Source: an uncultured Coriobacteriaceae bacterium
Lineage (GTDB): Bacteria > Actinomycetota > Coriobacteriia > Coriobacteriales > Atopobiaceae
Reading direction: 5' to 3'
DNA length: 64,000 nt
NCBI GenBank assembly: GCA_902779675.1
Contig: CACZCK010000002.1
Span: 62,001 to 126,000 of the forward strand
Positions 25,605 through 44,980 of this stretch are shown here, piece by piece. The notes beneath the pieces are model-generated. The model was not told where the DNA came from. It was given only the letters and a program-made list of their open reading frames with translations, and did not search any database. Each line of letters opens with the position of its first letter. Positions within the stretch are counted from its first letter, which is position 1. The position numbers and the translations under genes were made by a program.

Positions 25605-27095
25605 ATGAACCAGGCCAGCAGCGCCTTCCGCACATGGCTCGCGAGCCAGCGCGTCCGCGGCGTGGCCCCCGTCGCCGTCAGCGAGAGCAACTACCGCATC
25701 GACGTGGGCTCGGCTGTGGCCGAGGTCAACCTCTGGCCCTATGAGAACGACGTCGAGATCGCCGAGTACCAGATCACGCGCACGTCGGACGGCGAGGTCA
25801 TCTTCTTCCTCCATGTGCTGCTCGACGATCTGAGCCGCGCGCAGGAGCTCTTTGCCGAGATGACTGAGGCGCTCGAGGACGAGCGCCGCCACACGACCAC
25901 CCACGTGCTGCTCTGCTGCACCTCGGCCATCACCACCACCCTATTTGCGCACAAGATGAACGAGGTCGCCCAGGGGCTCTCGCTCGATTACGACTTTACG
26001 GCGATGTCCATCGACCGTGCCTTGCAGGAGGGCGATCGCTTCCAGGCAATCCTTCTGGCCCCGCAGGCAAGCCACATGCGCACCCGCATGGCCGAGACCT
26101 ACCCCGACGCCCTGGTCTTCGAGATACCGGGCAAGATCTTTGGCACCTACGACGCCGCCGGCGCCGTCAGGCTGCTGATGCATGCCTTCCGCGACGCCCA
26201 GATGCCCGCGCAGCACGGAAGCGTGCGCGTGGCCCGCGACCTCTCCAACGACAAGCGCATCCTCATCATCACACTGATCACCCTGCGCACCTCCTCGCGC
26301 CTGGGGTACCGCCTCTACGACCATGGACGGCCGACCGCCCAGGGCACCGTCCAAAAGCAGAAGCTCGACTATCGCGACGTGGAGGACCTGCTCGAGACCA
26401 TGAGCGCACGCGACGTACGGGTGGAGGACCTCGACATCATCGGGATCGCGGTGCCCGGCGTGGCCTATCACGGCGTGGTCAGCCTTCCGAGCCTGCTGCA
26501 CGACGACTACGACCTCGGCAGCCACATCCAGAAGCGCTTTGGCATCAGGACCTCGGTGGACAACAACTGCAACGCTGCTGCCGTGGGGTGCTATGTGGGC
26601 CAGGACACCTACGAGAGCGTGATGTTCTATCGGCACGAGTTCGGGCATGTGGCGGGAGGCCTGGGCACCGTCATCGATGGGACCCTGCTCAAGGGCAGGC
26701 ACAACCTCGCCGGCGAGCCCAAGTACTTTGAGAGCATGTTCTCATACAGCCAGAGCTATACCGATGCGCTCTGGAGCGACGAGGGCATGCTGCAGATCGC
26801 CCGCAACGTGGCGCTTGCGGGCATCTCGCTCATCTCGCCCGAGGCGTTCTACTTTGCGGTGGACACCGTCGACGACATGGACGAGCTGCGGCGCGCCATC
26901 ACCAGCACGGCCACCAACCCCAACGGCGAGTGCCTCCTCGCACCAAACGGCAAGCCGCTGCTTGGACTGCCCGACGACCTGGTTCCGTCACTGCACGTGG
27001 TCGACGACTACGTGGAGCGCGTCTACCTGGGCGAGATGGCCCTCTGCCTGCAAAAGCTGCGCGACCCCAACTACCGCTCGCTGGGCATCGCGTAA
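25605..27095 (+). CDS. EIIB-like domain fused to a degenerate ROK domain
   Basis: The 496-residue protein has three parts. Residues 1-95 are an unrecognised alpha/beta region. About 98-195 resemble a lactose/cellobiose-type EIIB, with Cys104/Cys105 in HVLLCCTSAITTT where the phosphorylated cysteine would be. About 215-496 resemble a ROK domain: VDNNCNAAAVG and GIAVPG are kept, but the N-terminal DxGGT ATP motif and the Cys-rich zinc motif are missing. It is therefore unlikely to be a normal kinase. No HTH is visible. I suggest a PTS-linked sensor or regulator; this is inference. Confidence 0.65.
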   Translation: MNQASSAFRTWLASQRVRGVAPVAVSESNYRIDVGSAVAEVNLWPYENDVEIAEYQITRTSDGEVIFFLHVLLDDLSRAQELFAEMTEALEDERRHTTTHVLLCCTSAITTTLFAHKMNEVAQGLSLDYDFTAMSIDRALQEGDRFQAILLAPQASHMRTRMAETYPDALVFEIPGKIFGTYDAAGAVRLLMHAFRDAQMPAQHGSVRVARDLSNDKRILIITLITLRTSSRLGYRLYDHGRPTAQGTVQKQKLDYRDVEDLLETMSARDVRVEDLDIIGIAVPGVAYHGVVSLPSLLHDDYDLGSHIQKRFGIRTSVDNNCNAAAVGCYVGQDTYESVMFYRHEFGHVAGGLGTVIDGTLLKGRHNLAGEPKYFESMFSYSQSYTDALWSDEGMLQIARNVALAGISLISPEAFYFAVDTVDDMDELRRAITSTATNPNGECLLAPNGKPLLGLPDDLVPSLHVVDDYVERVYLGEMALCLQKLRDPNYRSLGIA

Positions 27096-28011: not shown

Positions 28012-28866
28012 TTATACCAGGGATTCGATGGGCTGTAGCGGCTGCGGATGCCCCCAGGCACCGTGCATGGTGCAGGTGATGGCAGCGCGCTTGGCAGCAA
28101 AAGAGAGCGCGGCCTCTGCGTCATGACTCTCGAACCAGCGCACCAAGAAGGCTGCCGCAAACGAGTCGCCCGCGCCCATGGTGTCGGCAACCTCGACAGG
28201 CACGATGCCGGTGTGGCTCAGGTCGCCTGCATAGAAGCAAAGGCTACCCCGCGAGCCGAGCGTACACACCACCAGCTGCGGACCCAGCTCGTGCAGGCGC
28301 CGTGCAAAGGCGCAGATGTCCTTCTCGTCAAGGAGCGTCCCGTCCTCTCGCTCGCCCGAGAGAAAGGCGATGTCGATGTGAGGGGCCGTCGCAGTTACCC
28401 AAGACTCGTCGTCCCACGCATAGACCGAGTAGTCGTAGCTCACGGGCAGCGTCTTGTGCAGCCGCTCCAGAGAGGCGTCCACACCAGCCTCGTTGGTGGT
28501 GTGGCACACGTCGAAGCACCCGAGCCACGTGCGATCGGCACCAGAGATGCGCAGACCATAGAGCTCGTCGAGGCACTCCTCAGAGCGGTCCTCAAACTGG
28601 CGGTCGCCGTCGACGATGCGCACGCCCCAGTACGACGTGGGCTCTTGCACCACGCGACAGCGCGAGAGGTCGACACCCTCCCCCGCCGCAAGCTCGCGCA
28701 GCACCTGGCCACGCTGGTCGGCTCCCACGATGCCAAGAAACCCAGCCGCCTCCGCCCCGTCATGCAGGGCGTTCACCGCCACGTTGAGCGCCTGGCCACC
28801 CGGATACCATACGCCCTCGTCCAGGTAGCAGTCACAGCAGGCGTCGCCCACAGTTGCGATTCTCAT
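28012..28866 (-). CDS. frlD: FrlD-like fructosamine 6-kinase (PfkB family)
   Basis: The 284-residue PfkB kinase closely follows the FrlD pattern: MRIATVGDACCDCYL at the start, YPGGQALNVAVNA, the catalytic block DTMGAGDSFAAAF and the ending HGAWGHP. FrlD phosphorylates fructoselysine at C6 so that FrlB can deglycate it. ATG 28866 is chosen for homology and an AAGGGGA box. It lies at the end of the Amadori operon, just after an MFS gene, which suggests it handles substrate that enters unphosphorylated. Confidence 0.75.
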   Translation of the reverse strand: MRIATVGDACCDCYLDEGVWYPGGQALNVAVNALHDGAEAAGFLGIVGADQRGQVLRELAAGEGVDLSRCRVVQEPTSYWGVRIVDGDRQFEDRSEECLDELYGLRISGADRTWLGCFDVCHTTNEAGVDASLERLHKTLPVSYDYSVYAWDDESWVTATAPHIDIAFLSGEREDGTLLDEKDICAFARRLHELGPQLVVCTLGSRGSLCFYAGDLSHTGIVPVEVADTMGAGDSFAAAFLVRWFESHDAEAALSFAAKRAAITCTMHGAWGHPQPLQPIESLV

Positions 28867-28894
28867 GGCATGTCCCCTTCGGTCAATGTCGCAA

Positions 28895-30124
28895 TCAGTC
28901 CTTGAGCAGGCAGTCCCGCGCCACAAACAGGGCCCCCACGCCCGCGATGACGCATGCGGCGCCAACGAGCACCGCCTGCGGGCCAACCATCTCGGCAAGG
29001 AACGGAGCTGCCAGGAGTGGCACCACGCCAGCCATCATGAGGCCAAAGCGCTGGAAGCCCATGATGCGTCCCAAGTGGCTTATGGGGGCCTCCTCCTGCA
29101 CGAGAGTCACTTCGATCGGCTCGAAGAAGCCCCAGCACAGGCCGTTTGTCGCCTGCCCCAGGCAGGCGCATGCAAGCCATGGCGTGCCCACGTAGAGCAG
29201 CGACGAGAGGCCGACAAGCAGCAGCGTGACCAGCAGCACGCGCAGGTTGATGCGCTCGGCCGGCCATTTGGTCACGATGAACGACCCCAAGACACCGGTG
29301 AATCCCGCCACGGCCGAGAGCCACCCCATCCAGTCCGGGCTCACCCGCAGCACATCGCGATAGTACAGGCTCTCAAGCGAGTCGAAGGCCCCAAAGGCGC
29401 AGAAGCCCAAAAAGCCCGCCACAAAGATGGTGCGCAGCGTCCTGTTGGCAAAGGTGAGGCGCGCGCCTTCGGCCATGCCACTCATCACGCCACCAGATGC
29501 GTCCAAATCCTTGTCGTCATCCTTCTGCGGGCTAAGCCGCTCGTGTGCGCCGAGGGCTGCGGGAATGGCCGTCGCCGTGACCGCTGCCATAAAGAGGAAC
29601 GTGGCGCGCGAGGGGGCATGCTGCACGATAATCCCGCCAAAGACCGGGCCCATCGCATAGGCAATGTTGGAGTAGAACACCAGCTGACTGTTGAGACGGA
29701 TGAGGCCCTCGTGATCATTGCGCAGGTAGGCCGGCCAGGCGCGCGTGGAGGTGTTGACGAACCCGCCCGTCAGTCCAAGCATCGCAGAGGCAAAGAACAG
29801 CAGGGGTGCCGTGGTGGAGGCAAATCCCACCACCAACGCGCCCGCCACCGTGACCGCAAGCGCCCACATGGCGGTCACACGGGGCCCGAGCCGGTCCACC
29901 ACCGGGCCAGAGACGGCGTTGCCCAGCGAGGTCGTCAGGTTGTGCACAAGCGTGATGCCCGCCACCAGAAAGGCGCTGCCTCCCAGGTCATAGGTCGCGG
30001 CACCGATCAGCCCCAAGAAGTAGACGGCATTGTGCGCCATCCACTGGAGGGACTCGACCAGGATGAGGCAAATCTCGGCCCGGCTCAGGCCCGCATATCG
30101 TTTCCACCAGCGCAGCAGCTGCAT
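28895..30124 (-). CDS. MFS transporter in the Amadori locus
   Basis: The 409-residue membrane protein has about twelve hydrophobic segments and MFS motifs (GPVVDRLGPR between helices 2 and 3). It may import Amadori compounds or export products such as lysine. The start at 30124 is preferred because a hairpin terminator (30161-30204) overlaps the alternative ATG at 30175. The kinase gene follows after 28 bp and is probably cotranscribed. Confidence 0.75.
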   Translation of the reverse strand: MQLLRWWKRYAGLSRAEICLILVESLQWMAHNAVYFLGLIGAATYDLGGSAFLVAGITLVHNLTTSLGNAVSGPVVDRLGPRVTAMWALAVTVAGALVVGFASTTAPLLFFASAMLGLTGGFVNTSTRAWPAYLRNDHEGLIRLNSQLVFYSNIAYAMGPVFGGIIVQHAPSRATFLFMAAVTATAIPAALGAHERLSPQKDDDKDLDASGGVMSGMAEGARLTFANRTLRTIFVAGFLGFCAFGAFDSLESLYYRDVLRVSPDWMGWLSAVAGFTGVLGSFIVTKWPAERINLRVLLVTLLLVGLSSLLYVGTPWLACACLGQATNGLCWGFFEPIEVTLVQEEAPISHLGRIMGFQRFGLMMAGVVPLLAAPFLAEMVGPQAVLVGAACVIAGVGALFVARDCLLKD

Positions 30125-30160
30125 AGAGCTATCAGTGTCCCTTCCCGAGCAGGCAGCGAT

Positions 30161-30204
30161 GGGCCCATCCCCCACTCCCAGACACGCAGGCGGGAGATGG
30201 GCCC
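30161..30204 (-). terminator. Hairpin after the lipoprotein gene
   Basis: GGGCCCATC and GATGGGCCC (30161-30169 and 30196-30204) form a perfect 9-bp stem just past the lipoprotein stop. It should reduce read-through into the MFS and kinase genes. Confidence 0.6.
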
Positions 30205-30220
30205 GTGCGAGCCATCGTAG

Positions 30221-31327
30221 CTACTCCACCACCGTCACAACAACCTCGGCCGTCTCGCCGCCCTGCGTCACGGTAATGGTAGCCTCGCCAGGGGCCACGG
30301 CCCAGATTTTGCCGTCGTCCGAGACGGTCGCCACACCCTCGTCGGAGGAGGCGTAGTCGGCATCCACCCAGGGGTTCTCCACCGTCAGCTGATACTCGCC
30401 ATCGCTGCGTATGGTGAGTGCGTCCACATATACGTTGAGACCTGCGTCAGAGGGCTCAAGCTCCGATGCGCTGAACCAGTAGGGTTCGCCCGCATCGCCC
30501 ACGATCTCGTACGTGAAGCTCACCGGCTCTTCGGCATCGGTGTACCAGTTAAGCATGTAGCTGTTTGCGGCATCAAACTCGTAGGTGAAGGAGCCGTCGA
30601 CCTCCAGCTCGTCCTCGGCCACCACGGCGCCGTCGTGGATGGTCGCCATGTAGAGGCAGACGGGACCCTCGGTCTCCGCAGCATCGGACAGCTTCACCTC
30701 GAAGGTGCCCGTCTTGTCGGTCGCAAAGGCAACGACGTCTCCCTCGGTGGTCGTACCCTCAGGGTCGAGCACGACGCCGTGGGCCTTGTTGGCCTCGACG
30801 TACTCCGGCATGGCCGAGAGGCAGAACCAGATGGACGAAATGTTGGAACGGCTGCCGTAGGAGAGGTCGGTCGCATCGGCGGGGAACATCGCCAGCAGGT
30901 ACTCGAGCTCGTCGTTGTCGTAGAGGTTCGCCTCGGTCACGCGGTCGATGGTGTAGCTTAGGCCGTTGGCCCCCTCGATGGGTACGTAGACGATCTCGCC
31001 CGTCTCGGCGATGTGCTGGCAGTAGTACCACTGGAACGCAAACTGCGAGAGGTCGACGTCTGCTGGCGTGACATTCTCCTCACCGGCATCGCCGATGGCC
31101 TCGGCCTCGAGATACTCAATGACCTTGGCCTCGAAGGTCACCGTGTCGCCCAGGTGGCACCAGCGGTCGCCATGCGCGCGATACAGGTCGTAGACGACAT
31201 CTTCTGGGGTGGAAGCCGTCGCCTCGGCACCACCCTCGGTGCTCGCCGACGGCGCCGCGGTACCGCAGCTGGCCAGGCCCAGTGACAGAACCAGTGCCAG
31301 GGTGGTGGCAACGCTCTTGCTATGCAT
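30221..31327 (-). CDS. Lipoprotein with C-terminal Ig-like (BIG2) domain
   Basis: The 368-residue protein has a Sec signal and lipobox (LASC, Cys21), so it should be anchored outside the membrane. The last ~60 residues resemble a bacterial Ig-like group 2 domain (SSDEGVATVSDDGKIWAVAP ... ATITVTQ). The central part is not recognised; it is rich in acidic and aromatic residues. It is encoded directly after EIID in the PTS operon, behind a small hairpin. It may bind substrate at the surface, which is a guess. Confidence 0.6.
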   Translation of the reverse strand: MHSKSVATTLALVLSLGLASCGTAAPSASTEGGAEATASTPEDVVYDLYRAHGDRWCHLGDTVTFEAKVIEYLEAEAIGDAGEENVTPADVDLSQFAFQWYYCQHIAETGEIVYVPIEGANGLSYTIDRVTEANLYDNDELEYLLAMFPADATDLSYGSRSNISSIWFCLSAMPEYVEANKAHGVVLDPEGTTTEGDVVAFATDKTGTFEVKLSDAAETEGPVCLYMATIHDGAVVAEDELEVDGSFTYEFDAANSYMLNWYTDAEEPVSFTYEIVGDAGEPYWFSASELEPSDAGLNVYVDALTIRSDGEYQLTVENPWVDADYASSDEGVATVSDDGKIWAVAPGEATITVTQGGETAEVVVTVVE

Positions 31328-31349
31328 ACGAGTTTCCTTTCATCAAAAT

Positions 31350-31380
31350 GGCGGCAGACGCCCACGCAGCGCCTGCCGCC
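31350..31380 (-). other. Intercistronic hairpin between EIID and lipoprotein genes
   Basis: GGCGGCAG (31350-31357) and CTGCCGCC (31373-31380) form a perfect 8-bp stem downstream of the EIID stop. It may attenuate transcription or stabilise the upstream mRNA. Confidence 0.5.
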
Positions 31381-31400
31381 ACCCTTTGGGAGGGCAGCCT

Positions 31401-32246
31401 CTAGCCCAAGAAGCCGAAGAAGGCGCCTATCACACCGAGCACCATGGTGCCCAGCACCAGGTACGACGGGTTGATCTTCTTGGACAGCAGCCAGTAGTAC
31501 GCCCAGAAGGCACCAAGGCCCAGGATGCCCGGCATGATCTCGTTGAGGATGTCCTGGATGGTGGCGGCATCCTCGGCGGCAGACAGGGCAACGGGGATCT
31601 CGGCCCAGAACATGTCGACCGTCATGGCGCCGATGACCATGGCGCCGATGATGGCCGCCGCGCTCATGACCTTGGCCATAAGGCCCGTGCGCTGCGCCTG
31701 CTCGAGGAAGTTGACACCCAGGTCGTAGCCCTTCTGCGCACCCCAGATGCGCAGCCAGAAGCCGGGAAGGTTGTAGATGAGCAGGAAGGCGATGGGGCCA
31801 AAGGGGTTGCCGGCCTGCATGAGCGAGATACCCACGGCAGCAGCGATGACGCGGATGGTGGCCAGGAAGATGGAGTCGCCCAGACCCGACAGCGGACCCA
31901 TGAGGGCAGCCTTGACGTCGTTGACCGCCTCGGGCTCGATCTCGCCGCGCTTGATGCGCTCCTCCATGGAGAGCGCGATGCCGCCCACGAACGGCGCAAA
32001 CTGCACCGTGATGTTAAAGAACGCGGCGTGGCGGCCAAGGGCTGCGGCATAGCCCTCGGGATCGTCGTGGTAGACCTTCTTGAGGACCTTGCCCATCATG
32101 ACGGCAAAGGCGAGGTTCATCTGCTTGTAGTAGGTCCAGGAGAACTCCATGCCCAGCGAGCCGTCGTTGAGGGCCATCTCCGTAAGGTCCTTCTTGGTGA
32201 TCGCGTACTGGTCGCCCGCGACCGGGGCCTGGACATCAGAAGTCAT
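31401..32246 (-). CDS. PTS mannose-family EIID
   Basis: The 281-residue membrane subunit belongs to the mannose (Man) PTS family. ALMGPLSGLGDSIFLATIR is a diagnostic EIID motif, and SWTYYKQMNLAFAVMM near the start also fits. Together with EIIC it forms the channel. ATG 32246 is preferred because AGGAGG lies 6 nt upstream; it overlaps the EIIC end by 11 nt, so the two are translationally coupled. Confidence 0.9.
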   Translation of the reverse strand: MTSDVQAPVAGDQYAITKKDLTEMALNDGSLGMEFSWTYYKQMNLAFAVMMGKVLKKVYHDDPEGYAAALGRHAAFFNITVQFAPFVGGIALSMEERIKRGEIEPEAVNDVKAALMGPLSGLGDSIFLATIRVIAAAVGISLMQAGNPFGPIAFLLIYNLPGFWLRIWGAQKGYDLGVNFLEQAQRTGLMAKVMSAAAIIGAMVIGAMTVDMFWAEIPVALSAAEDAATIQDILNEIMPGILGLGAFWAYYWLLSKKINPSYLVLGTMVLGVIGAFFGFLG

Positions 32247-33003
32247 CGTCATCCTCCTCAAGGGCGAGCTGGGCGTCCATGCCACCGCCAAGCAGGTTGA
32301 ACTTCTCGATCACGATGATGATGGCAAGCAGGGCCACACCAAGAACCGGCATCCCCACGTAGCTGCACAGCAGGAAGCCGAGGAAGAAGAAGGGCATGGA
32401 CTCCTTGTTGAGAATCATGCGGCCGAGCATGGCAAAGCCCATGGCAGGCAGCATGTTGGCGGCAATGCCAAAGCCATCGAGCACGAAGGAGGGAATCCAG
32501 TCGAGGATGCCCTGAACGGCATCGGCTCCCAGGAGGAACGCCCCGCCACAGAGCAGGAAGTACTCCAGGCAACCCCAAAGGCCAATGCCCCAGTGGGCGA
32601 TGCGGGTACTCCGAAGGTCGCCCTCGCCAGCCTTCTTCTCGCCCCAGTCGACGATGAGCGGCCAGATGGGCTGCAGCAGGTTGCCGATGGCCTGCGAGAG
32701 GATGGCGATGGGCATGGCCAGCGCGATGGCAGCCTCGGTGCCCTGACCCAGGCTGATGGCAAAGGCACAGGCCAACACGCCGCCAACCGTCTCGTTTGGC
32801 GGAACGTAGGCTCCGATGGAGATGGAGCCCATGAAGAGCAGCTCGAGGCTCGCACCAACGGCGAGGCCGGTCTGCAGATCGCCGAGCGCGATGCCCACGA
32901 GCGGGCAGAGCACGATCGGCCGGAACGCATAGAGGGTACCCAGCTGATAGTCGAAGCAACCGAACGCTGCAACGAGGCCTACCAGGATGGCTTGCATGAC
33001 CAT
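32236..33003 (-). CDS. PTS mannose-family EIIC
   Basis: The 255-residue integral membrane protein has the EIIC-Man hallmarks: an early FRPIVLCPLVGIALGDLQTG and GASLELLFMG. The C-terminus is strongly acidic (EEDDDDF). It forms the sugar path with EIID. GGAGG lies before ATG 33003, and a second in-frame ATG lies two codons on. A strong hairpin separates it from the upstream EIIB gene. Confidence 0.9.
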   Translation of the reverse strand: MVMQAILVGLVAAFGCFDYQLGTLYAFRPIVLCPLVGIALGDLQTGLAVGASLELLFMGSISIGAYVPPNETVGGVLACAFAISLGQGTEAAIALAMPIAILSQAIGNLLQPIWPLIVDWGEKKAGEGDLRSTRIAHWGIGLWGCLEYFLLCGGAFLLGADAVQGILDWIPSFVLDGFGIAANMLPAMGFAMLGRMILNKESMPFFFLGFLLCSYVGMPVLGVALLAIIIVIEKFNLLGGGMDAQLALEEDDDDF

Positions 33004-33080
33004 GTGTTCCTCCTTCCTTTCCTTGTCTGTAGCGATTGGCTACGATGAGTTCAGCCGTCGGACAGGCGCCGACGGGCAGA

Positions 33081-33120
33081 TGCGGGCGGGACGTACCGGA
33101 CCAGGGAGTGCCCGCCCGCA
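33081..33120 (-). other. Intercistronic hairpin between EIIB and EIIC genes
   Basis: A perfect 10-bp stem (33081-33090 and 33111-33120), very GC-rich, lies just past the EIIB stop. It resembles the hairpin at 34945-34970 and may set relative subunit amounts. Confidence 0.55.
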
Positions 33121-33128
33121 GCGATGCC

Positions 33129-33599
33129 TTACAAAACGCTTGCCGCGTCGATCTTGGGATCGTCGGCCAGCGGGCGAATCTCGACCTCGATGCCACGGTC
33201 GATCAGCTCGCGAATCATCTGCTCCTCCTCGGGCTCCAGGAAGACCTGGCGCGCCACGGTGCGTGTGGTGGGGCTGCTCTTGGTGTTGCCGAGGTTGATG
33301 GACGTGACGGCCGGGCAGTTGTCGGCCAACTGCTTGGCCTCGGCGATGGTCTGCACGCTGATGAGCATGCGGTACTTGTCGGTCACGCCAGAATTGATGG
33401 CCTCGATGGCGTGAGCCATGTCCTTGATGACAAGCTTGCAACCTGCAGGCTTGCCCATCTTGAGGGTGGTCTTCCACACCGGGTCGTTGGCAATGTGGTC
33501 GCCCACACAGAAGATGCAGTTGGCCTTGAGGCCCTGGGCCCAGGAGACGGCCACCTGGCCGTGCAGCAGGCGATGGTCAACGCGAAGCAACAAGATCAT
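33129..33599 (-). CDS. PTS mannose-family EIIB
   Basis: The 156-residue cytoplasmic subunit carries the phosphorylated histidine in RVDHRLLHGQV (His14) typical of Man-family EIIB. It transfers phosphate from EIIA to the incoming substrate. By context the product would be a 6-phosphorylated Amadori compound. Confidence 0.9.
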   Translation of the reverse strand: MILLLRVDHRLLHGQVAVSWAQGLKANCIFCVGDHIANDPVWKTTLKMGKPAGCKLVIKDMAHAIEAINSGVTDKYRMLISVQTIAEAKQLADNCPAVTSINLGNTKSSPTTRTVARQVFLEPEEEQMIRELIDRGIEVEIRPLADDPKIDAASVL

Positions 33600-33657
33600 G
33601 ATTTCCCTCCCAAAGGAATCGGTGGTACGTGCGTCGGGCCGAGTGACCCGTTAGTGC

Positions 33658-34077
33658 CTAGAACTCGTCGTCGTCATCGACACCTTCGGTCAAAAGGTCG
33701 TTGACGAACTTGACGCGCGCGTCGTCGGAAGATGCCAGCTCGCGCAGCAGGTCTGCCGTAGGCTGGTCGTCATCGGCAAACACCAGCTGCAAGAGCAGCG
33801 GCAGGTTCATGTTGGTGATTAGGTACACGTTGTCGTGGAGCTGCATCTGCTTGGTGAACTCGTTGTTGACCGAGCCGCCAAACAGGTCGGTGCAGACGAT
33901 CACGTCGCCCTCGCCGGCCTCCTCGACTGCCGTGGCACAGATGGTCTCGACGTCGTCGTTGCCGTCCACAAACAGGCATATGACACGGACGTTCTCATGG
34001 GGACCGGTCAAGAGCTCCAAAGCCTCGTTGATGCCGGCGGCAAAGTGCGCATGGCTTGCGATGATGATGTTTCTCAT
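33658..34077 (-). CDS. PTS mannose-family EIIA
   Basis: The 139-residue subunit has the EIIA-Man start MRNIIIASHAHFAAG, where His9 corresponds to the phosphorylated residue. VIVCTDLFGGSVNNEF also fits the family. GGAGGTGAG precedes ATG 34077, and the upstream epimerase gene ends 2 bp before it. The C-terminus is acidic (DDDDEF), like that of EIIC. Confidence 0.88.
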   Translation of the reverse strand: MRNIIIASHAHFAAGINEALELLTGPHENVRVICLFVDGNDDVETICATAVEEAGEGDVIVCTDLFGGSVNNEFTKQMQLHDNVYLITNMNLPLLLQLVFADDDQPTADLLRELASSDDARVKFVNDLLTEGVDDDDEF

Positions 34078-34079
34078 AG

Positions 34080-34913
34080 CTATCTCACCTCCGTCGCATG
34101 CTGGTAGATGCTCATCGTGCGGGCATCGGCTGCGGCGGGATCGGCCAGATAGCGCTCGCTGTACGTCTCGACCGAGCAGATGCCCTGGTACCTGTGGGCG
34201 ACAAGCGCGTCGAGATCGGCGCGCATCGAGCGGTGGCCGTCGCCCCATGCCACATGGCTCACGTCCGCATAGTCGGTAAAGTGGCAGTGGACGATGCTGT
34301 CGCCCAGCTCGTCGAAGTAGCCATCGATGGTCTCACCGGCGCGCTCCATGGCCCCGATGTCCAGGCACGCCAGAAGCGCAGGGTTGGCAACCTCGTCGAT
34401 CAGCTGCGCGATATCGGCCGCCGTGTTGGCGAGAACCGACTCCTCGGGCTGCAGCGCCTCGAGCACCAGCCGGACGCCTCGCCTGCCGGCTTGCTCTGAC
34501 AGCGAGCGCAGCATCTCGACGGATCGACCCCAAGCCTCCTCGCGCGGCTCGTCGAGAAACGCCCAGCCGGGCGTGACCACAACCTGCGGCGCGTCCAGTC
34601 CGGCCGCCACCTCGATGGCATTGCAGAAGTACGCATGGGTGCGTGCCTGGGCGCGCAACCCCCGCGCCGCGACATTGTGCGGCTTGGGGTTGTTCTGCTC
34701 GGGGCAAAGGCCCACAAGCGCAAGCCCGTGACGCGCAAGGCCATCGCGCAGCTCATTTAGCGGGTCATACCCGAACGCGCTAAGGAAGAAGTGCATGGGG
34801 CCTGTCCACAGCTCCACATGGCGATAGCCTGCGGCTTCCGAGCTGGCCAAGAACTCTTGTAGCGGGTAGAAGCTGTGGATGATGTTCATTGCAGCGAGCT
34901 GTGGATAGCGCAT
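34080..34913 (-). CDS. frlC: FrlC-like fructosamine 3-epimerase (TIM-barrel)
   Basis: The 277-residue protein is an AP-endonuclease-2-type TIM barrel close in length and pattern to FrlC, which interconverts fructoselysine and psicoselysine. Likely metal ligands are Glu in LVLEALQPEES, Asp in CLDIGAM, His in HCHFTDY and Glu in SVETYS. GYRHVELWTG and FDELGDSIVHCHF resemble FrlC. GGAGG precedes ATG 34913. It sits between the deglycase and EIIA genes. Confidence 0.72.
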   Translation of the reverse strand: MRYPQLAAMNIIHSFYPLQEFLASSEAAGYRHVELWTGPMHFFLSAFGYDPLNELRDGLARHGLALVGLCPEQNNPKPHNVAARGLRAQARTHAYFCNAIEVAAGLDAPQVVVTPGWAFLDEPREEAWGRSVEMLRSLSEQAGRRGVRLVLEALQPEESVLANTAADIAQLIDEVANPALLACLDIGAMERAGETIDGYFDELGDSIVHCHFTDYADVSHVAWGDGHRSMRADLDALVAHRYQGICSVETYSERYLADPAAADARTMSIYQHATEVR

Positions 34914-34944
34914 GTCCCCCTCCTTTCGCGCGTCTCGAAGCGAC

Positions 34945-34970
34945 GCCGGGCGGACGCGTGCCCGCCCGGC
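34945..34970 (-). other. Intercistronic hairpin between deglycase and epimerase genes
   Basis: A perfect 9-bp stem (34945-34953 and 34962-34970) lies just after the deglycase stop. It shares the GGGCGGGCAC string with the hairpin at 33081-33120 when read on the minus strand. Confidence 0.55.
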
Positions 34971-34978
34971 ACCGAAGC

Positions 34979-36040
34979 CTAGTAGTCGAACTGGTGGTAG
35001 TAGCGGCGGTAGGCGAGGTTGTGCTTGGTGTTGAGCTCGTAGTACGCAGACAGGCGGTCGGTCACGAGCGAAGAGAGGATCCACACCGAGGTGATGGGAC
35101 GGAACTCGGGATCGACGCCAGGCAGCGCATACTCAGCGGTGTCGATGACCACGATGTCCTGGTCGCCGGTGCGGCCGCTCTTTAGGAAGGCGTCAACGCG
35201 CTCGTCGAGCTTGCGGCACTCGTCCTCGCCCTTGAACAGGATCACAGGCACGCCAGGCTCCACCAGCTCGAGGGTGCCATGGAAGAAGTCGGCCGAGGTG
35301 ATGTAGCGGGTGCGCTTCCACTGCATCTCCTCGAGGATGCACATGGCAAACAGGATGGTCTCGCCCCACAGCGCGCCAGAGCCCACGAACATGGTGTAGG
35401 GGGCCAGAGCGTACTTCTTGGCGATCTGCTCGGCCTTGGGCTCGAACTGCTTGCGAATGTCGAGGAGGCTCGCCCAGACATCCTTGGTCTGATCGACGAA
35501 CTCACGGTACTTGGGGAAGCAGCCGCGACGCTCCAGGATCTTGAGACCAAAGCGATCGGCCAGGTAGTAACCCATCTCGCAACCGCCCTCACCATGGCTG
35601 GAGGCCATCTTGATGCAGTTGTCGGCACCCACGGCCTGGCCGATGGGCCCCTCGGGCTTGGTCATGGCAAAGACGCGGACACCCATCTCCTTGAGCTTGC
35701 CGATGGCCTCGAGCACCTCGGGGGTGGTGCCGCTCTCGGAGGCGGTGAGCACGACGGACTTGCTCGTCATGCGCTTGTGGCCGGCCACGTTCCACTCGGC
35801 GGCGTGGATGAGATAGACCTCAAGATCCTTGTCGCCGTACTTGTTCATGAGGTACTCGAGCTGCATGAACTCGTCCCAGGTGCCGCCCACGCCCATCAGG
35901 AAGATGGCGTCATAACCCTCGTCGGCAACGCGGTCGGCCAAGGCCTCCATCTTGTCGCCGGCCTCGACGGCTGCCTTTCCGTCTGCCAGATAGCCCTCCT
36001 GGTCGAAATGCATGATCTCGACCTTCTCCGTCTCCTTCAT
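34979..36040 (-). CDS. frlB: FrlB/GfrF-like fructoselysine-6-phosphate deglycase (SIS domains)
   Basis: The 353-residue protein has two SIS domains and the FrlB-type features: FLMGVGGTWDEFMQLEYL, SESGTTPEVLEAIGK, ITSADFFHGTLELVEPGVP and the ending RRYYHQFDY. FrlB splits fructoselysine 6-phosphate into glucose 6-phosphate and lysine. CGAAAGGAG precedes ATG 36040. It is the second gene of the operon. The exact amino-acid partner (lysine, asparagine or another) cannot be told from sequence. Confidence 0.75.
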   Translation of the reverse strand: MKETEKVEIMHFDQEGYLADGKAAVEAGDKMEALADRVADEGYDAIFLMGVGGTWDEFMQLEYLMNKYGDKDLEVYLIHAAEWNVAGHKRMTSKSVVLTASESGTTPEVLEAIGKLKEMGVRVFAMTKPEGPIGQAVGADNCIKMASSHGEGGCEMGYYLADRFGLKILERRGCFPKYREFVDQTKDVWASLLDIRKQFEPKAEQIAKKYALAPYTMFVGSGALWGETILFAMCILEEMQWKRTRYITSADFFHGTLELVEPGVPVILFKGEDECRKLDERVDAFLKSGRTGDQDIVVIDTAEYALPGVDPEFRPITSVWILSSLVTDRLSAYYELNTKHNLAYRRYYHQFDY

Positions 36041-36120
36041 GGGTACGCTCCTTTCGTCTGTCCTCTTCGGACCATGTACTGCGTGCTATCAACGAGCGAT
36101 GCTGTTCGCTGCGTTTGCGT

Positions 36121-37245
36121 TTAGGCGCCGTAGCGCTCCGCTGCCTGGGCCTCCAGCGCATGGATGGCATCGGCGTAGCCAACCGCCTTCGTGTTCATGC
36201 GGTCCGCCTGCGCCTCGAGAAGCGGGTGCACGTCCTCGCAGCGCAGTTCGTCCATCAGCTGGGCGCACATCCACTGGAAGGGCACCAGCGCAGGAATCGC
36301 CGCCATGAGCGGATTGCGGACCGATGGGAGGAGGAGGAGGGAAGGGCCCTCCCCCTCCCGATTGGGAAGGAAGGTGACCAGGGTGGTTGCACAGACCCGG
36401 GAGAAGCTATCGGCCAGAGTCGCCGTACGCTCGTCACCCTGGGCATCTTCGAGCAAGAAGAGCTGGTAGCGTGGGTCGATCTGCATCTCGGGACCATGGA
36501 CGAACTCCTCGGGCTCGTGCATCATGGCGGGACGCTTGAGACATTCGTTGAGCTTGAGGCAGGCCTCCATGGCCACTCCGTAGAGCGGGCCGGCGCCCAC
36601 GACCATCGTGGGAGCGCTCCGAACCAGCTCACGCCGCTGGGCAGCCATGAAGGCCTCGGTCGCATCCAGCGCGCCGGCATGAGCATCGATGGCCGCCCCA
36701 AGGTCGGCGAGTCCTACGGCAAGCGCCTCGTTGTCCAGACGCCCGACCGCGTGTGCCGCATGCAGGGCAAAGAGCATTAGGAACTCGACGAGCGTCTGCA
36801 TGCCCATGGTGACGAAGTCAACCGACTCCACGCCCACGCCCCAATCGATCACGAGGTCGGCATGCTCGCTCACCGGAGCCGCCGGGTTGCCGGTAAGGGC
36901 GACGGCCGTACGCCCCAGCGAACGGGCGAAGTCGAGCGCGGCCAACGTGTTGGTGGAATAACCGCTCTGGCTGACAAACACCTCGAAGGCGTCGGACGGC
37001 CAAGCATGATCGAACTTGACGTAGGACTCCGGCGTGACGATCACGACGGGCACCTCGAGGACCTCCTGCATGAGGTCGCGCGCGCAGAAGCTGGCGTTGC
37101 GCGAAGATCCGCATGCCACGATGCGCACGGAGGGAGCGCCGGCATGGGCATACGCGTCAACCAGCGAGGAGACCAGCTCTTTGCCACGGGCGACGTTCTC
37201 GCGCATGCGCGGGTTTGCCAACTTGACGTAGTCGAGCATCCTCAT
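36121..37245 (-). CDS. GlmS-like SIS protein, candidate second deglycase (GfrE-like)
   Basis: The 374-residue protein has two SIS domains of the GlmS/AgaS kind (IVACGSSRNASFCARD, VFVSQSGYSTNTLAAL, MVVGAGPLYGVAMEACLKL, HEPEEFVHGPE). It lacks a glutaminase domain. In Salmonella a man-type PTS locus encodes two such proteins, GfrE and GfrF, for glucoselysine and fructoselysine phosphates; this gene fits the GfrE role. It is the first gene of the operon, and the repeats at 37263-37385 lie upstream. It could also be an isomerase/deaminase of another amino sugar. Confidence 0.68.
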   Translation of the reverse strand: MRMLDYVKLANPRMRENVARGKELVSSLVDAYAHAGAPSVRIVACGSSRNASFCARDLMQEVLEVPVVIVTPESYVKFDHAWPSDAFEVFVSQSGYSTNTLAALDFARSLGRTAVALTGNPAAPVSEHADLVIDWGVGVESVDFVTMGMQTLVEFLMLFALHAAHAVGRLDNEALAVGLADLGAAIDAHAGALDATEAFMAAQRRELVRSAPTMVVGAGPLYGVAMEACLKLNECLKRPAMMHEPEEFVHGPEMQIDPRYQLFLLEDAQGDERTATLADSFSRVCATTLVTFLPNREGEGPSLLLLPSVRNPLMAAIPALVPFQWMCAQLMDELRCEDVHPLLEAQADRMNTKAVGYADAIHALEAQAAERYGA

Positions 37246-37262
37246 GTCCTGTCCCTCCCCTG

Positions 37263-37385
37263 CAATACCTGTTAGTTACTTTTCAATACCAATTTGTTGA
37301 GAGACAAGTTATCAGGTTTTTAAATCCAATTGTCCGCGAACAGCCGTCTGCGGGCGAGTGGTATCAAAACGTCGCTAAGTGGTAT
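37263..37385 (-). promoter_or_regulatory. Promoter region with two pairs of 21-bp-spaced repeats
   Basis: CAATACC occurs at 37263-37269 and 37284-37290. The near-complement GTGGTAT occurs at 37358-37364 and 37379-37385. Each pair is spaced exactly 21 bp, which places the copies on the same DNA face. The repeats lie upstream of the Amadori operon and recur at 39453-39478. Confidence 0.55.
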
Positions 37386-37424
37386 TTATTTCTAGCTTAG
37401 TTGTCTATGTTTGGCGATGGCTCG

Positions 37425-37451
37425 CGCGCAAGGGGTGCTCCCCTTTGCGCG
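37425..37451 (-). terminator. Terminator of the GntR operon
   Basis: CGCGCAAGGGG (37425-37435) pairs with CCCCTTTGCGCG (37440-37451) with a 4-nt loop and a one-base bulge, just past the end of the minus-strand GntR gene. Confidence 0.65.
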
Positions 37452-37463
37452 AAGGACCTGGTT

Positions 37464-38186
37464 TTAGAACTTGAAGGTATAGCCGGCAAAGTCCGCGCGG
37501 CTGATGTTGCGGGCATACTCGATCGCATTGCCCGAGATGTCGTAGCTCACGCCCTCCGAGACCATAGCCACGTCTCCCGTATCCACGTGCAAAAGGCCCG
37601 CCTCACGCGCCGTGAGCGCCAGCACGTCGAGTTTCTCCTGCACGCGCGCCACCTTGTGGCCCAGCAGCTCATACGTCTCGTACAGGCTGAACACCTGGAT
37701 GTCGACGTCTTCGATCGTCGGCAAGAGGCTCAGCGGGATCAGCGTGTTCTCAAGCGCCACCGGCTGGCCGTCAAGGCTGTTCAGGCGGCGCAACGAGTAG
37801 AGCAGGTCGTCCTCCGGAATGCCAAAGAGCCAGCCATAGTAGGCACCCGCCTTGCGCCTCCCGCTCGCAAGCAGGCGCACGGACGGCTCCATGCCGAGGG
37901 CCTCCGCCACCTTGCGGAAGCCACCCTGCGGGACGGATGTGCGGCTGATGTTATGGGAGGAGACGAACGCCCCCTTGCCCTGCACGCGCCGTATGCACCC
38001 CCGCTCGACCAGCGCATCCATGGCATTGCGCACGGTGAGGCGCGTCGTCCCAAACTCGTCCGCAAGCTCGTTCTCCGAGGGCAGGACCGAACCGGCAGGA
38101 TACTCGCCGCGATCGATGCGCTCTTCGATCTTGCGGCGTATGCGCAGGTATATGGGCTGTTCGTGCGAGCTTACGATCTGAGCCAC
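37464..38186 (-). CDS. GntR/UTRA transcriptional regulator (HutC subfamily), first
   Basis: The 240-residue protein has an N-terminal winged helix (YLRIRRKIEERIDRGEYPAG, LPSENELADEFGTTRLTVRN) and a C-terminal UTRA ligand domain ending in YARNISRADF. It is the last gene of a three-gene overlapping unit. GTG 38186 is chosen because GGAGG lies upstream and homology begins there; it overlaps the previous gene by 16 nt. It probably senses an Amadori phosphate, like FrlR, and controls the divergent-facing PTS operon. Confidence 0.78.
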   Translation of the reverse strand: MAQIVSSHEQPIYLRIRRKIEERIDRGEYPAGSVLPSENELADEFGTTRLTVRNAMDALVERGCIRRVQGKGAFVSSHNISRTSVPQGGFRKVAEALGMEPSVRLLASGRRKAGAYYGWLFGIPEDDLLYSLRRLNSLDGQPVALENTLIPLSLLPTIEDVDIQVFSLYETYELLGHKVARVQEKLDVLALTAREAGLLHVDTGDVAMVSEGVSYDISGNAIEYARNISRADFAGYTFKF

Positions 38187-38935
38187 GCGTCGCTCACCTC
38201 CGCTGCACCCGTGTCCCACACCTCGTCGCTGGCAAAGCGGAAGTGTGCCGGCAAGGTGACCGACTTAAAGTACTCGACCGGCTCCATCTGCTCCGTCCAC
38301 TCCTGGCCGCGCTCGTAGAAGGCGGGCTCCCCCTCCTCGACACCCAGGATCTCGGACTCCCACTCGTTGACGCGTGTGATGGAGATACGCTCGATGCTGT
38401 GCGCGATCGAGATGCCGTACTTTTGCTTGAGCACCTCGTACAGACTCTCGACCGCGAAGTCGTGACTCTCGATACCCGGGCAGATCTCACTGTTGACGTA
38501 CGTGGTCTCGATGGCGACGGGCACGCCGTCTGCCATGCGCAGGCGCCTGAGCTCCAGGACCGTGGCACCCACCTCAACACCCAGCTTTGCCGCAAGCGCT
38601 TCCCCCGCAGGGAGAAAGCCCTGTGAGAGCACGCGCGCAGAGGGAACGAGCCCCGCGTCGCGCACCGCCGCCGAAAAGGCTCCGGCGCTCTGAAACACGC
38701 TGAGAGGCTTGGGTGCGCACACATACGTACCCGACCCAACCCTGCTTTCGAGCACGTGCGCGCTCGTAAGCTGGGCGATTGCTCCACGCAGGGCAGTACG
38801 AGAGATGCCCAACCGCTCGCAGAGAATGCGCTCTGCCGGAAGGCGGTCGCCGGCAGCAAGCCCCTCGCTCTGGATGAGCCACAGGATCCCCTCGGCCGCC
38901 TTATCGCGTGGAGGTATGTCAAACGTCTCGGTCAT
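38171..38935 (-). CDS. GntR/UTRA transcriptional regulator, second
   Basis: The 254-residue protein has a GntR winged helix (AGDRLPAERILCERLGISRT) and a UTRA domain (VLELRRLRMADGVPVAIETT). It differs clearly from the neighbouring GntR, so this is not a recent duplication. Both ends overlap neighbouring genes (17 nt upstream, 16 nt downstream), so the three are coupled. Two regulators may respond to two related substrates or form a hierarchy. Confidence 0.78.
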   Translation of the reverse strand: MTETFDIPPRDKAAEGILWLIQSEGLAAGDRLPAERILCERLGISRTALRGAIAQLTSAHVLESRVGSGTYVCAPKPLSVFQSAGAFSAAVRDAGLVPSARVLSQGFLPAGEALAAKLGVEVGATVLELRRLRMADGVPVAIETTYVNSEICPGIESHDFAVESLYEVLKQKYGISIAHSIERISITRVNEWESEILGVEEGEPAFYERGQEWTEQMEPVEYFKSVTLPAHFRFASDEVWDTGAAEVSDAWLRS

Positions 38936-39428
38936 CTGGTGATATGTGCTCTCTCATGGCATCAAAGGTGGCCTTTAGCCGTTCTGCGTATTCTACCATG
39001 CGCCTAAACGGCACAGAGTCGCGCTTGGTCGCACGAGTGATGACGGGAAGCTGCAGATGCCCGACGCCACCCTCTGCATCATCCGAACGCACGGCAACCA
39101 CGACGCCCATACCCAGACAATACCCATGCCTCGCAGCATTGTCCTGTGTAGCCCGCGCGGGATTCTTGAGCAGTTCCTTGAGACGGTCTGCGTTGGTGTC
39201 CACGTCTTCCTGCGGCTTGGCCTCCACGATTTCGCAGGCAAGCACGTCATCGTATGAGAAGATGCGCGGACTCGCCCCTGGATACCGCACTGCCCAGCGC
39301 CGCAGGGGCTCATCGAGGCAGACGGTCGGTTCGAGCGCAAGCGGCGCCGCCTCGTAGACGACCTTGGTCGCTGTGAAGCCCGTCCCCTCAAAGAGCTTCT
39401 GAAGCCTTCGTGTCTTCCTGTCCGTCAC
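38919..39428 (-). CDS. Protein of unknown function leading the GntR operon
   Basis: The ~169-residue protein is not a family I can name. It contains RRWAVRYPGASPRIFSYDDV and an alternating pattern that could be a PH-like or beta-rich fold, with a charged helical C-terminus. There is no signal peptide or membrane segment. GTG 39428 has GGGAGG 6 nt upstream and is preferred over an in-frame TTG at 39458. It overlaps the next GntR gene, so it probably works with these regulators. Confidence 0.6.
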   Translation of the reverse strand: MTDRKTRRLQKLFEGTGFTATKVVYEAAPLALEPTVCLDEPLRRWAVRYPGASPRIFSYDDVLACEIVEAKPQEDVDTNADRLKELLKNPARATQDNAARHGYCLGMGVVVAVRSDDAEGGVGHLQLPVITRATKRDSVPFRRMVEYAERLKATFDAMREHISPDDRDV

Positions 39429-39452
39429 CGTGATCCTCCCGTTGTCCTTAAG

Positions 39453-39482
39453 ATACAACTATGCTAGTTTCTAATACCAATT
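39453..39482. promoter_or_regulatory. 21-bp-spaced ATAC repeat before the HAD gene
   Basis: ATAC at 39453-39456 and AATACCAATT at 39473-39482 place their ATAC cores exactly 21 bp apart, as at 37263-37290. They lie between the GntR operon and the HAD phosphatase gene, so both may be under the same control. Confidence 0.5.
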
Positions 39483-39524
39483 AAAACAAGTCTTGTTTTC
39501 CAAATAGCGAACGAGGGAGGACCA

Positions 39525-40196
39525 ATGGCTCCAAAGGCAGTCATCTTCGACATGGACGGTGTGCTCGTGGACACCGAGCCAGAAAACCAGCGCCACATTC
39601 AGGAGTTCTTTGCCGACCGCGGACTCGAGTTGCCCAAGGCCGCTACCGACGACCTCGTAGGCTGCACAGGTGCCTACTTTCTCGAGCGCATCAACGAGTG
39701 GTGGGCCGCAACGCCGCGCAAGCATGTTGACGAGCTCGCTATGAGCGCTGGCGAGGCCATGGACCGCCACTTTGCCAACATCCTCTACGACTATCCCTCG
39801 CTGCTCAACCCTGGGGTGCCCCAGACGCTCGACGGCCTTCGCGAGCGCGGCATACGCTGCGCCGTAGCCTCTTCAACCGAGCGGACGGGCATCGTGCGGG
39901 CGCTCGAGCCCTGCGGCATTCTCGACAAGTTTGCCTTCGTCCTGTCTGGCGAGGACTTTGAGCACGGCAAGCCGGCTCCCGACATCTACCTGGCAGCCGC
40001 CGTAAAGCTCGGACTCGATCCTACCGACTGCATCGCCATCGAGGACTCCGACCGCGGTATTTTGGCTGCTCGGCGCGCCGGCATGCGAGTGGCCGTCAAG
40101 CGCGAGAAGCGCTTTGGCTTTGCTCAGGAGGGCGGCAGCTGGTACCTCGACCGCATCGACGAGCTGCTGGGGATCGTGGACGGCGAGCTGCAGTGA
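39525..40196 (+). CDS. HAD-family phosphatase (beta-phosphoglucomutase-like)
   Basis: The 223-residue protein shows the HAD motifs in order: FDMDGVLVDTEP (motif I), VASST (motif II), KPAPDIYL (motif III lysine) and IEDSDRGILAA (motif IV). It resembles sugar-phosphate phosphatases or beta-phosphoglucomutases. The upstream site matches that of the Amadori operon, so it may dephosphorylate an intermediate or a stalled product. The substrate is unknown. Confidence 0.8.
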   Translation: MAPKAVIFDMDGVLVDTEPENQRHIQEFFADRGLELPKAATDDLVGCTGAYFLERINEWWAATPRKHVDELAMSAGEAMDRHFANILYDYPSLLNPGVPQTLDGLRERGIRCAVASSTERTGIVRALEPCGILDKFAFVLSGEDFEHGKPAPDIYLAAAVKLGLDPTDCIAIEDSDRGILAARRAGMRVAVKREKRFGFAQEGGSWYLDRIDELLGIVDGELQ

Positions 40197-44680: not shown

Positions 44681-44980
44681 GTGAAATGCTCCTTTCCGTA
44701 ATCCTCGGATGGTAGGGCGCAGGAGAGATCCTTGTCCCACCATGTAAAGAGACACGCCGTGTTGACCTTCGGTGGTTTTGCTCTGCACCCATTCTAGATG
44801 CGAAAATGGTGCTGAGAGCGGTGCTTTGCGCATTCTCTCGCTCGGGTGGGAGGGGACGCATGGTTGGCGCCAGCCTCCTCCCACTGTCTGCGAAAGGAAG
44901 GAAGGGTGCCGTCTGGCCCTCGGGCGGGGGCTCCGTCACGTGGAGCGTGCGGAGGCATGAGGTGCCTCGTCCCCGCGCCT

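Follow-up and report, generated by a model that had tools for sequence, protein, structure and literature searches.

The question raised by this 64,000-nucleotide stretch of DNA (the window), which comes from the 2.9-Mb, 45-contig genome of an uncultured Coriobacteriaceae bacterium, is what compounds are taken up and split by the products of a run of about 12 genes on its minus strand (28012–38935). Genes for a mannose-type (Man-type) phosphotransferase system (PTS) lie there beside genes that resemble those for the use of Amadori compounds. Heated food and infant formula are rich in fructoselysine, and Collinsella and its relatives are common gut bacteria. An earlier interpretation made from the letters alone (the sequence-only reading) listed EIIA, EIIB, EIIC, and EIID, two SIS proteins, an FrlC-like epimerase, an FrlD-like kinase, two GntR regulators, and a lipoprotein, and proposed that the organism splits several fructosamines by combining parts of the Salmonella gfr and E. 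coli frl systems. Every gene on that list was found as an intact open reading frame on the minus strand; a major facilitator superfamily (MFS) gene, orf179, and a divergent HAD phosphatase gene also belong to the picture. We consider it probable, judging from sequence relationships, that the locus is of the Gfr type and serves the breakdown of Amadori and Heyns compounds of lysine, all of them candidate substrates. Most likely, this gut or rumen actinobacterium takes up the sugar-lysine adducts of heated food as phosphates, which it splits for carbon and nitrogen.

Transport and deglycase genes

In PMC12675984, Salmonella gfrABCD is described as importing and phosphorylating fructoselysine and glucoselysine, with GfrF cleaving fructoselysine 6-phosphate and GfrE cleaving glucoselysine 6-phosphate. 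All four PTS subunits of the window are of the Man type. EIIB, EIIC, and EIID are 50, 40, and 41% identical to the Citrobacter Gfr subunits vs. 26, 30, and 33% to those of E. coli Aga, which bears out the likeness to gfr claimed by the sequence-only reading; EIIA was compared with GfrA alone, to which it is 29% identical. Genes for Enzyme I (593 bits) and HPr are present at other places in the genome; therefore, the PTS of the locus can be energized. EIIABCD, fed by the general Enzyme I and HPr, would import fructoselysine and phosphorylate it at C6, and glucoselysine and psicoselysine probably enter as 6-phosphates by the same route.

The relationships of the two SIS proteins were determined in a tree of 51 such proteins. 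SIS1 fell into the GfrF clade of the gfr operons together with Citrobacter and Oceanobacillus proteins (support 100/99), apart from FrlB, GlmS, and AgaS, and is 42% identical to GfrF over its full length vs. 26% to FrlB. Its profile scores were 258.7 bits with PDB 2a3n, which we take to be Salmonella STM4540, that is, GfrF; 102.5 bits with 3eua, annotated as a putative fructose-amino-acid-6-phosphate deglycase; and 26.8 bits for the best GlmS match. In Citrobacter and Escherichia sp., SIS genes located inside gfr-type operons showed the SIS1-GfrF relationship independently. The products that SIS1 would release from fructoselysine 6-phosphate are glucose 6-phosphate and lysine.

SIS2 was placed in a wider GfrE-like group, in a separate clade (100/98) that adjoins the enterobacterial and Bacillus GfrE clade (96/95). 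In the comparison with FrlB, GfrE, and GfrF that the sequence-only reading had proposed, SIS1 thus joined GfrF, SIS2 was only a sister of GfrE, and neither protein grouped with FrlB in this tree. Both SIS1 and SIS2 have the Glu-x15-His pair common to GlmS, FrlB, GfrE, and GfrF. SIS2 would split a second adduct, for which glucoselysine 6-phosphate is the first candidate; since SIS2 is no more than a sister of the GfrE clade, naming glucoselysine as the substrate is guesswork.

These results bear on whether SIS1 and SIS2 are ordinary amino-sugar enzymes of the GlmS, AgaS, or NagB-II type in a PTS locus for N-acetylgalactosamine or glucosamine. The best NCBIfam model for SIS2 is in fact GlmS, at 79 bits against a cut-off of 381, with NagB-II third, and the top models for EIIA and EIIC are AgaF and AgaW, both below cut-off. 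AgaS was not among the NCBIfam matches of SIS2. The GlmS model is, however, also the best one for the GfrE of Escherichia sp. (124.6 bits) and for an E. faecium homologue, and E. faecium GfrE has been described as a glucosamine-6-phosphate synthase homologue (PMC12735817). Because a known-type GfrE likewise scores best with GlmS, this test does not discriminate. Since the Gfr subunits clearly outscore those of E. coli Aga in the PTS comparison, SIS1 matches the Salmonella-type GfrF structure strongly and GlmS faintly, and the run contains no aga or nag genes, we regard an amino-sugar locus as very improbable. The sequence-only reading had named a best alignment of the SIS proteins with GlmS or AgaS as the result that would count against it. 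For SIS1 the closest relative is instead GfrF; for SIS2 the best model is GlmS, yet GfrE behaves alike.

A PTS-linked subfamily of FrlC

The best model for the FrlC-like protein is NF007360 (fructoselysine 3-epimerase; 109.5 bits, next model 46 bits). It is 26% identical to E. coli FrlC, and E153, D186, H212, and E250, the metal ligands predicted by analogy with the ketose 3-epimerase fold, are invariant in the alignment of the two. When 38 homologues were placed in a tree, all the PTS-linked ones fell into one clade (99/97) across Actinomycetota and Bacillota, separate from E. coli FrlC and from the homologues of loci without PTS genes. The difference was visible in one loop: all 28 PTS-linked proteins had C71, P77, and K78, whereas all 10 others had T71, no P77, and Y78.

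A second set was collected by a mixed-profile search of 544 genomes, 348 from the family of the Bacillota locus L111 and 196 from the order of L100 (L and G numbers are our handles for loci and genomes). It yielded 49 alignable new homologues, which were scored as PTS-adjacent when PTS genes lay within 1.5 kb. P77-K78 was present in 12/12 PTS-adjacent homologues and in one of the remaining 37, L220. The wider neighborhood of L220 (L225) is a gfr PTS operon with the order EIIA-EIIB-EIIC-EIID-SIS1-HAD-FrlC; with L220 reassigned, none of the 36 non-PTS homologues carried the pair. Over both sets, the P-K pair of the NPKP motif occurred in 41/41 FrlC proteins linked to a Gfr-type PTS and in 0/46 elsewhere. 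The Fisher P of 1.4e-10 for the second set, before the L220 correction, overstates independence; the rows are related, and those of L111 and L100 recur in the second set. Within these alignments, the NPKP motif is a marker of the PTS-linked FrlC subfamily. Two other positions were rejected as diagnostic, C71, which is present in five non-PTS rows of the second set, and R229, which occurs in 27/28 PTS-linked proteins of the first set and in several non-PTS rows of the second. K78 was also dropped as direct proof of phosphate binding.

Because the PTS delivers 6-phosphates, action of the subfamily on psicoselysine 6-phosphate is the simplest inference. In the window, the FrlC-like enzyme would convert the 3-epimer (psicoselysine type), for the same reason most likely as the 6-phosphate, to the substrate of SIS1. 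No report of a psicoselysine 6-phosphate 3-epimerase activity was found in the searchable literature. We tentatively propose that the CPEQxNPKP proteins are such epimerases, which extend the Gfr-type PTS to 3-epimeric Amadori compounds, and that orf179 is an accessory protein or regulator with a PH fold, dedicated to the coriobacterial version. With the motif, annotators can separate PTS-linked from kinase-linked FrlC by sequence, and a specific question becomes testable, namely whether the epimerase acts on the phosphate. A gene of about 211 codons, whose product resembles, by eye, an aldolase of the DeoC/LacD type, ends the gfr PTS locus of Erysipelotrichales (L100:15028-15666, L225:7177-7812).

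The FrlD-like kinase

The kinase scored 172.6 bits with NF007321 (fructoselysine 6-kinase), the next model reaching 79 bits, and is 34% identical to E. coli FrlD; it is the only FrlD-like match in its own genome at E <= 1e-15. The FrlC-like and FrlD-like labels of the sequence-only reading therefore agree with the top NCBIfam models, albeit below the equivalog cut-offs. The closest relatives of the kinase (47–52%) come from other genomes of the family, where their genes adjoin an FrlB-like SIS gene; in the two such loci read closely (L166 and L170), there are apparent oligopeptide-type ABC transporter genes. Two Bacillota loci, L101 and L111, have the same PTS, a PTS-type FrlC, a HAD gene, and a kinase above the FrlD cut-off (317 bits). 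The pairing of PTS and FrlD therefore arose or survived more than once and is not particular to the source organism. The claim of the sequence-only reading that parts of both known systems are combined held for the gene content, in which Gfr-type and Frl-type genes are mixed; the combination is not unique.

The FrlD-like kinase could be a side entrance for unphosphorylated intracellular fructoselysine, derived from glycated peptides, from import by the MFS protein, or from dephosphorylation by the HAD protein. The MFS protein has a homologue with 57% identity in the equivalent position in C. aerofaciens, and its gene is present in 14 of 30 coriobacterial PTS loci; HAD genes are present in 18 of 46 PTS loci. 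A role of the MFS protein as an importer serving FrlD was considered and dropped, because FrlD is found in just one of those 14 loci.

The joint presence of HAD, FrlC, and FrlD in the window, and with the PTS in L101 and L111, would also fit a scheme in which FrlC acts on unphosphorylated compounds. Imported psicoselysine 6-phosphate would be dephosphorylated by the HAD protein, or the free compound would be imported by the MFS protein, and after epimerization FrlD would rephosphorylate the product for SIS1. According to the title of Wiame and Van Schaftingen 2004, as cited in PMC4697335, E. coli FrlC acts on psicoselysine rather than on its phosphate. FrlD is absent, however, from 20 of 23 loci with PTS and FrlC; therefore, FrlC must usually serve without that kinase. 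The PTS-linked FrlC proteins are moreover a separate subfamily, and dephosphorylation followed by rephosphorylation would waste a phosphoryl group. We consider this scheme unlikely.

Several points weigh against the interpretation that we prefer, a Gfr-type locus with an epimerase acting on the 6-phosphate. SIS2 lies outside the GfrE clade in the 51-protein tree and did not qualify as a GfrE orthologue. The FrlC-like protein (109.5 bits) and the FrlD-like kinase (172.6 bits) did not reach their equivalog cut-offs of 305 and 247 bits. The D-tagatose 3-epimerase profile aligns a Lys at position 78, in the same loop, and those enzymes act on free ketoses; the NPKP motif, being fixed in a clade, may reflect descent only. 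Finally, E. faecium has several loci with PTS and SIS genes whose SIS proteins are divergent, so that PTS plus SIS alone cannot fix the substrate.

Conservation of the locus and its substrate

About 20 species of the family and many further Coriobacteriia have the same core order, which excludes chance. The nearest locus is in the metagenome-assembled genome RUG12341 ("uncultured Coriobacteriaceae bacterium"), with locus proteins 98–100% identical. The 30 coriobacterial PTS loci, grouped by locus number so that a few Bacillota rows (L096, L098) are included, consisted of 11 with FrlC and no SIS2, 5 with SIS2 and no FrlC, 8 with both, 5 with neither, and 1, that of the near-identical RUG12341, with FrlC, SIS2, and FrlD. 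PTS plus FrlC is common in Coriobacteriia and Erysipelotrichales. The C. aerofaciens record has the order hypothetical-GntR-GntR-SIS-SIS-IIA-IIB-IIC-IID-MFS-SIS-epimerase; its deposited annotation says only "SIS domain-containing protein" and "hypothetical protein". The present analysis names the specific genes with which Coriobacteriia would use Amadori compounds.

Chemistry of the GfrF type could also be directed at another fructosamine or amino-sugar phosphate, formed with a different amino acid or amine. SIS1 is only 42% identical to GfrF, and many bacteria have several PTS plus SIS loci whose SIS proteins diverge. Three independent lines, from SIS1, the PTS, and the FrlC gene, nevertheless lead to gfr/frl systems. 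A related locus (L066), with an SIS1 81% identical to that of the window, is present in C. intestinalis DSM 13280. The compound in the 2019 work of Wolf and coworkers on that species was reportedly epsilon-fructoselysine. C. intestinalis is described as degrading dietary glycation products in PMC10255453, which also argues for lysine adducts; a different substrate is doubtful.

Some related loci are duplicated. Collinsella L066, L067, L069, and L149 have a pair of GfrF-type genes with about 80% identity to the SIS1 gene of the window, and some of them have two Man-type PTS gene sets side by side. The source genome itself has a second Man-type PTS locus (L141, G000:C11:43000-58000) with two FrlB-like SIS genes, HAD, and GntR. 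One of these SIS proteins shares 67% identity with a protein from an Enterococcus faecium plasmid (L147), which suggests that L141 and L147 share a different Amadori or amino-sugar substrate. E. faecium plasmids of the conjugative type (L146, L147, L150) carry several Man-type PTS plus SIS loci near insertion sequences; such catabolic modules are therefore probably mobile.

Regulators, operator-like site, and orf179

Of 23 distinct homologous regions that lie 5' of the SIS genes, 16 contained the heptamer TTGGTAT, which sometimes occurs as ATTGGTATgaaATACCAAT, vs. 0.7 expected and a maximum of 4 in 200 shuffles; the control used mononucleotide shuffles only, and 2 of the 23 regions come from the window itself. 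There are five copies in the whole 64 kb. One lies about 40 bp before SIS2 and another just before orf179, a placement that fits autoregulation by the GntR/UTRA pair. These two sites are candidate operators, on which the pair probably acts. When the promoters were searched for exact inverted repeats, the only palindromes were scattered and lineage-specific, and a stretch of N in one locus dominated the output.

The product of orf179 matched nothing in Pfam or NCBIfam. Among the 101 genomes of the family, orf179 is present in exactly the 21 that carry the locus, defined by an SIS1 of at least 70% identity, and in 0/80 others, and it adjoins GntR1 in nearly all loci read. The predicted structure had a predicted local distance difference test score (pLDDT) of 85, and the top VIA-align rows were nearly all folds of the PH/PTB type (Z about 8). 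The match to 3ulc (Z 8.3, root mean square deviation 2.4 over 81 residues) is at the edge of what is meaningful, and Foldseek gave no match to the model at E <= 0.001. The orf179 protein may be an accessory or a regulator.

Comparison with known systems

The locus shares with Salmonella Gfr the Man-type EIIABCD, the GfrF-type deglycase, and a GlmS-like SIS gene just upstream of it. In contrast to Gfr, it has a GntR/UTRA pair, whereas the operons L121 and L125 are preceded by the gene for a large regulator (about 920 residues); its SIS genes precede the PTS genes, SIS2 is only sister to GfrE, and FrlC, the FrlD-like kinase, the MFS gene, the lipoprotein gene, and orf179 are added. With E. coli frlABCDR it shares the FrlC-like epimerase, the FrlD-like kinase, and UTRA/GntR regulation; it differs in lacking the FrlA permease and FrlB, in uptake by a PTS, and in having an FrlC of another subfamily. 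The seven-gene fructoselysine PTS operon of Faecalibacterium prausnitzii is described, in PMC12136445, as gfrABCDF with one further gene that has no Salmonella counterpart; gfrE is absent there, whereas the window has a gfrABCDF-like set and the GfrE-like SIS2. The Intestinimonas AF211 cluster (PMC4697335) and the ABC/FrlB-like/FrlD-like loci of the relatives (L166-L172) have the logic of kinase plus deglycase in common with the window, but use ABC import of the free compound in place of a PTS. By gene content and relationship, we class the locus as Gfr-type with Frl-type additions, common in Coriobacteriia. Relative to the known Gfr system, the parts that appear new are the epimerase subfamily linked to the PTS, the kinase, and orf179.

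Gene organization

The features are listed in Table 1. In the direction of transcription, the order is orf179, GntR1, GntR2, a 218-bp gap, SIS2, SIS1, FrlC-like, EIIA, EIIB, EIIC, EIID, lipoprotein, MFS, and FrlD-like kinase. Because gaps from SIS2 to FrlD are at most 125 bp and the EIIC and EIID genes overlap, this segment looks like one transcription unit; the 218-bp gap 5' of SIS2 is the only one of promoter size. The orf179, GntR1, and GntR2 genes overlap one another (orf179 and the GntR1 start by 17 bp) and look like another unit.

Table 1. Features of the locus and their positions in the window
Feature	Position	Strand	Basis or remark
FrlD-like PfkB kinase (284 aa)	28012..28866	-	Best NCBIfam model NF007321; GAGD motif at 231
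MFS transporter	28895..30124	-	Pfam MFS_1; start taken as ATG 30124
Lipoprotein, LASC lipobox, beta-rich, C-terminal Big_2 domain	30221..31327	-	
PTS EIID, Gfr-type	31401..32252	-	Identity to Citrobacter GfrD > AgaD
PTS EIIC, Gfr-type	32236..33003	-	Identity to GfrC > AgaC
PTS EIIB, Gfr-type, HGQV phospho-histidine motif	33129..33599	-	Identity to GfrB > AgaB
PTS EIIA	33658..34077	-	PF03610 match; 29% to GfrA
FrlC-like 3-epimerase, PTS-linked subfamily, CPEQNNPKP motif	34080..34913	-	NF007360; clade; P77/K78
SIS1, putative GfrF-type deglycase	34979..36040	-	GfrF clade; E238 + H254 = E-x15-H pair
SIS2, GfrE-like SIS protein	36121..37245	-	Sister group of GfrE clade; E-x15-H pair
Putative promoter region 5' of SIS2, TTGGTAT site at 37286	37246..37463	-	
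GntR/UTRA regulator 2 (GntR2)	37464..38219	-	27% to E. coli FrlR
GntR/UTRA regulator 1 (GntR1)	38171..38935	-	
orf179, undescribed family, PH-like fold predicted	38919..39458	-	Start probably GTG near 39428
orf179/HAD intergenic region, TTGGTAT site at 39474	39459..39524	no strand	
HAD-family sugar phosphatase, beta-phosphoglucomutase/HxpB-like, divergent from orf179	39525..40196	+	

Among the 101 family genomes, an orthologue of the lipoprotein was found only in G093 and G024; its structure model, built from three sequences, is of low confidence (pLDDT 64). Two fusions lie outside the locus. One is an unusual 496-residue protein (25605-27095, plus strand) with an EIIB-like segment of the lactose/cellobiose-type PTS (residues 86-167) followed by a ROK segment (272-371), and the other is a type I phosphomannose isomerase fused to a ROK sugar kinase (701 residues; 42779-44884, minus strand).

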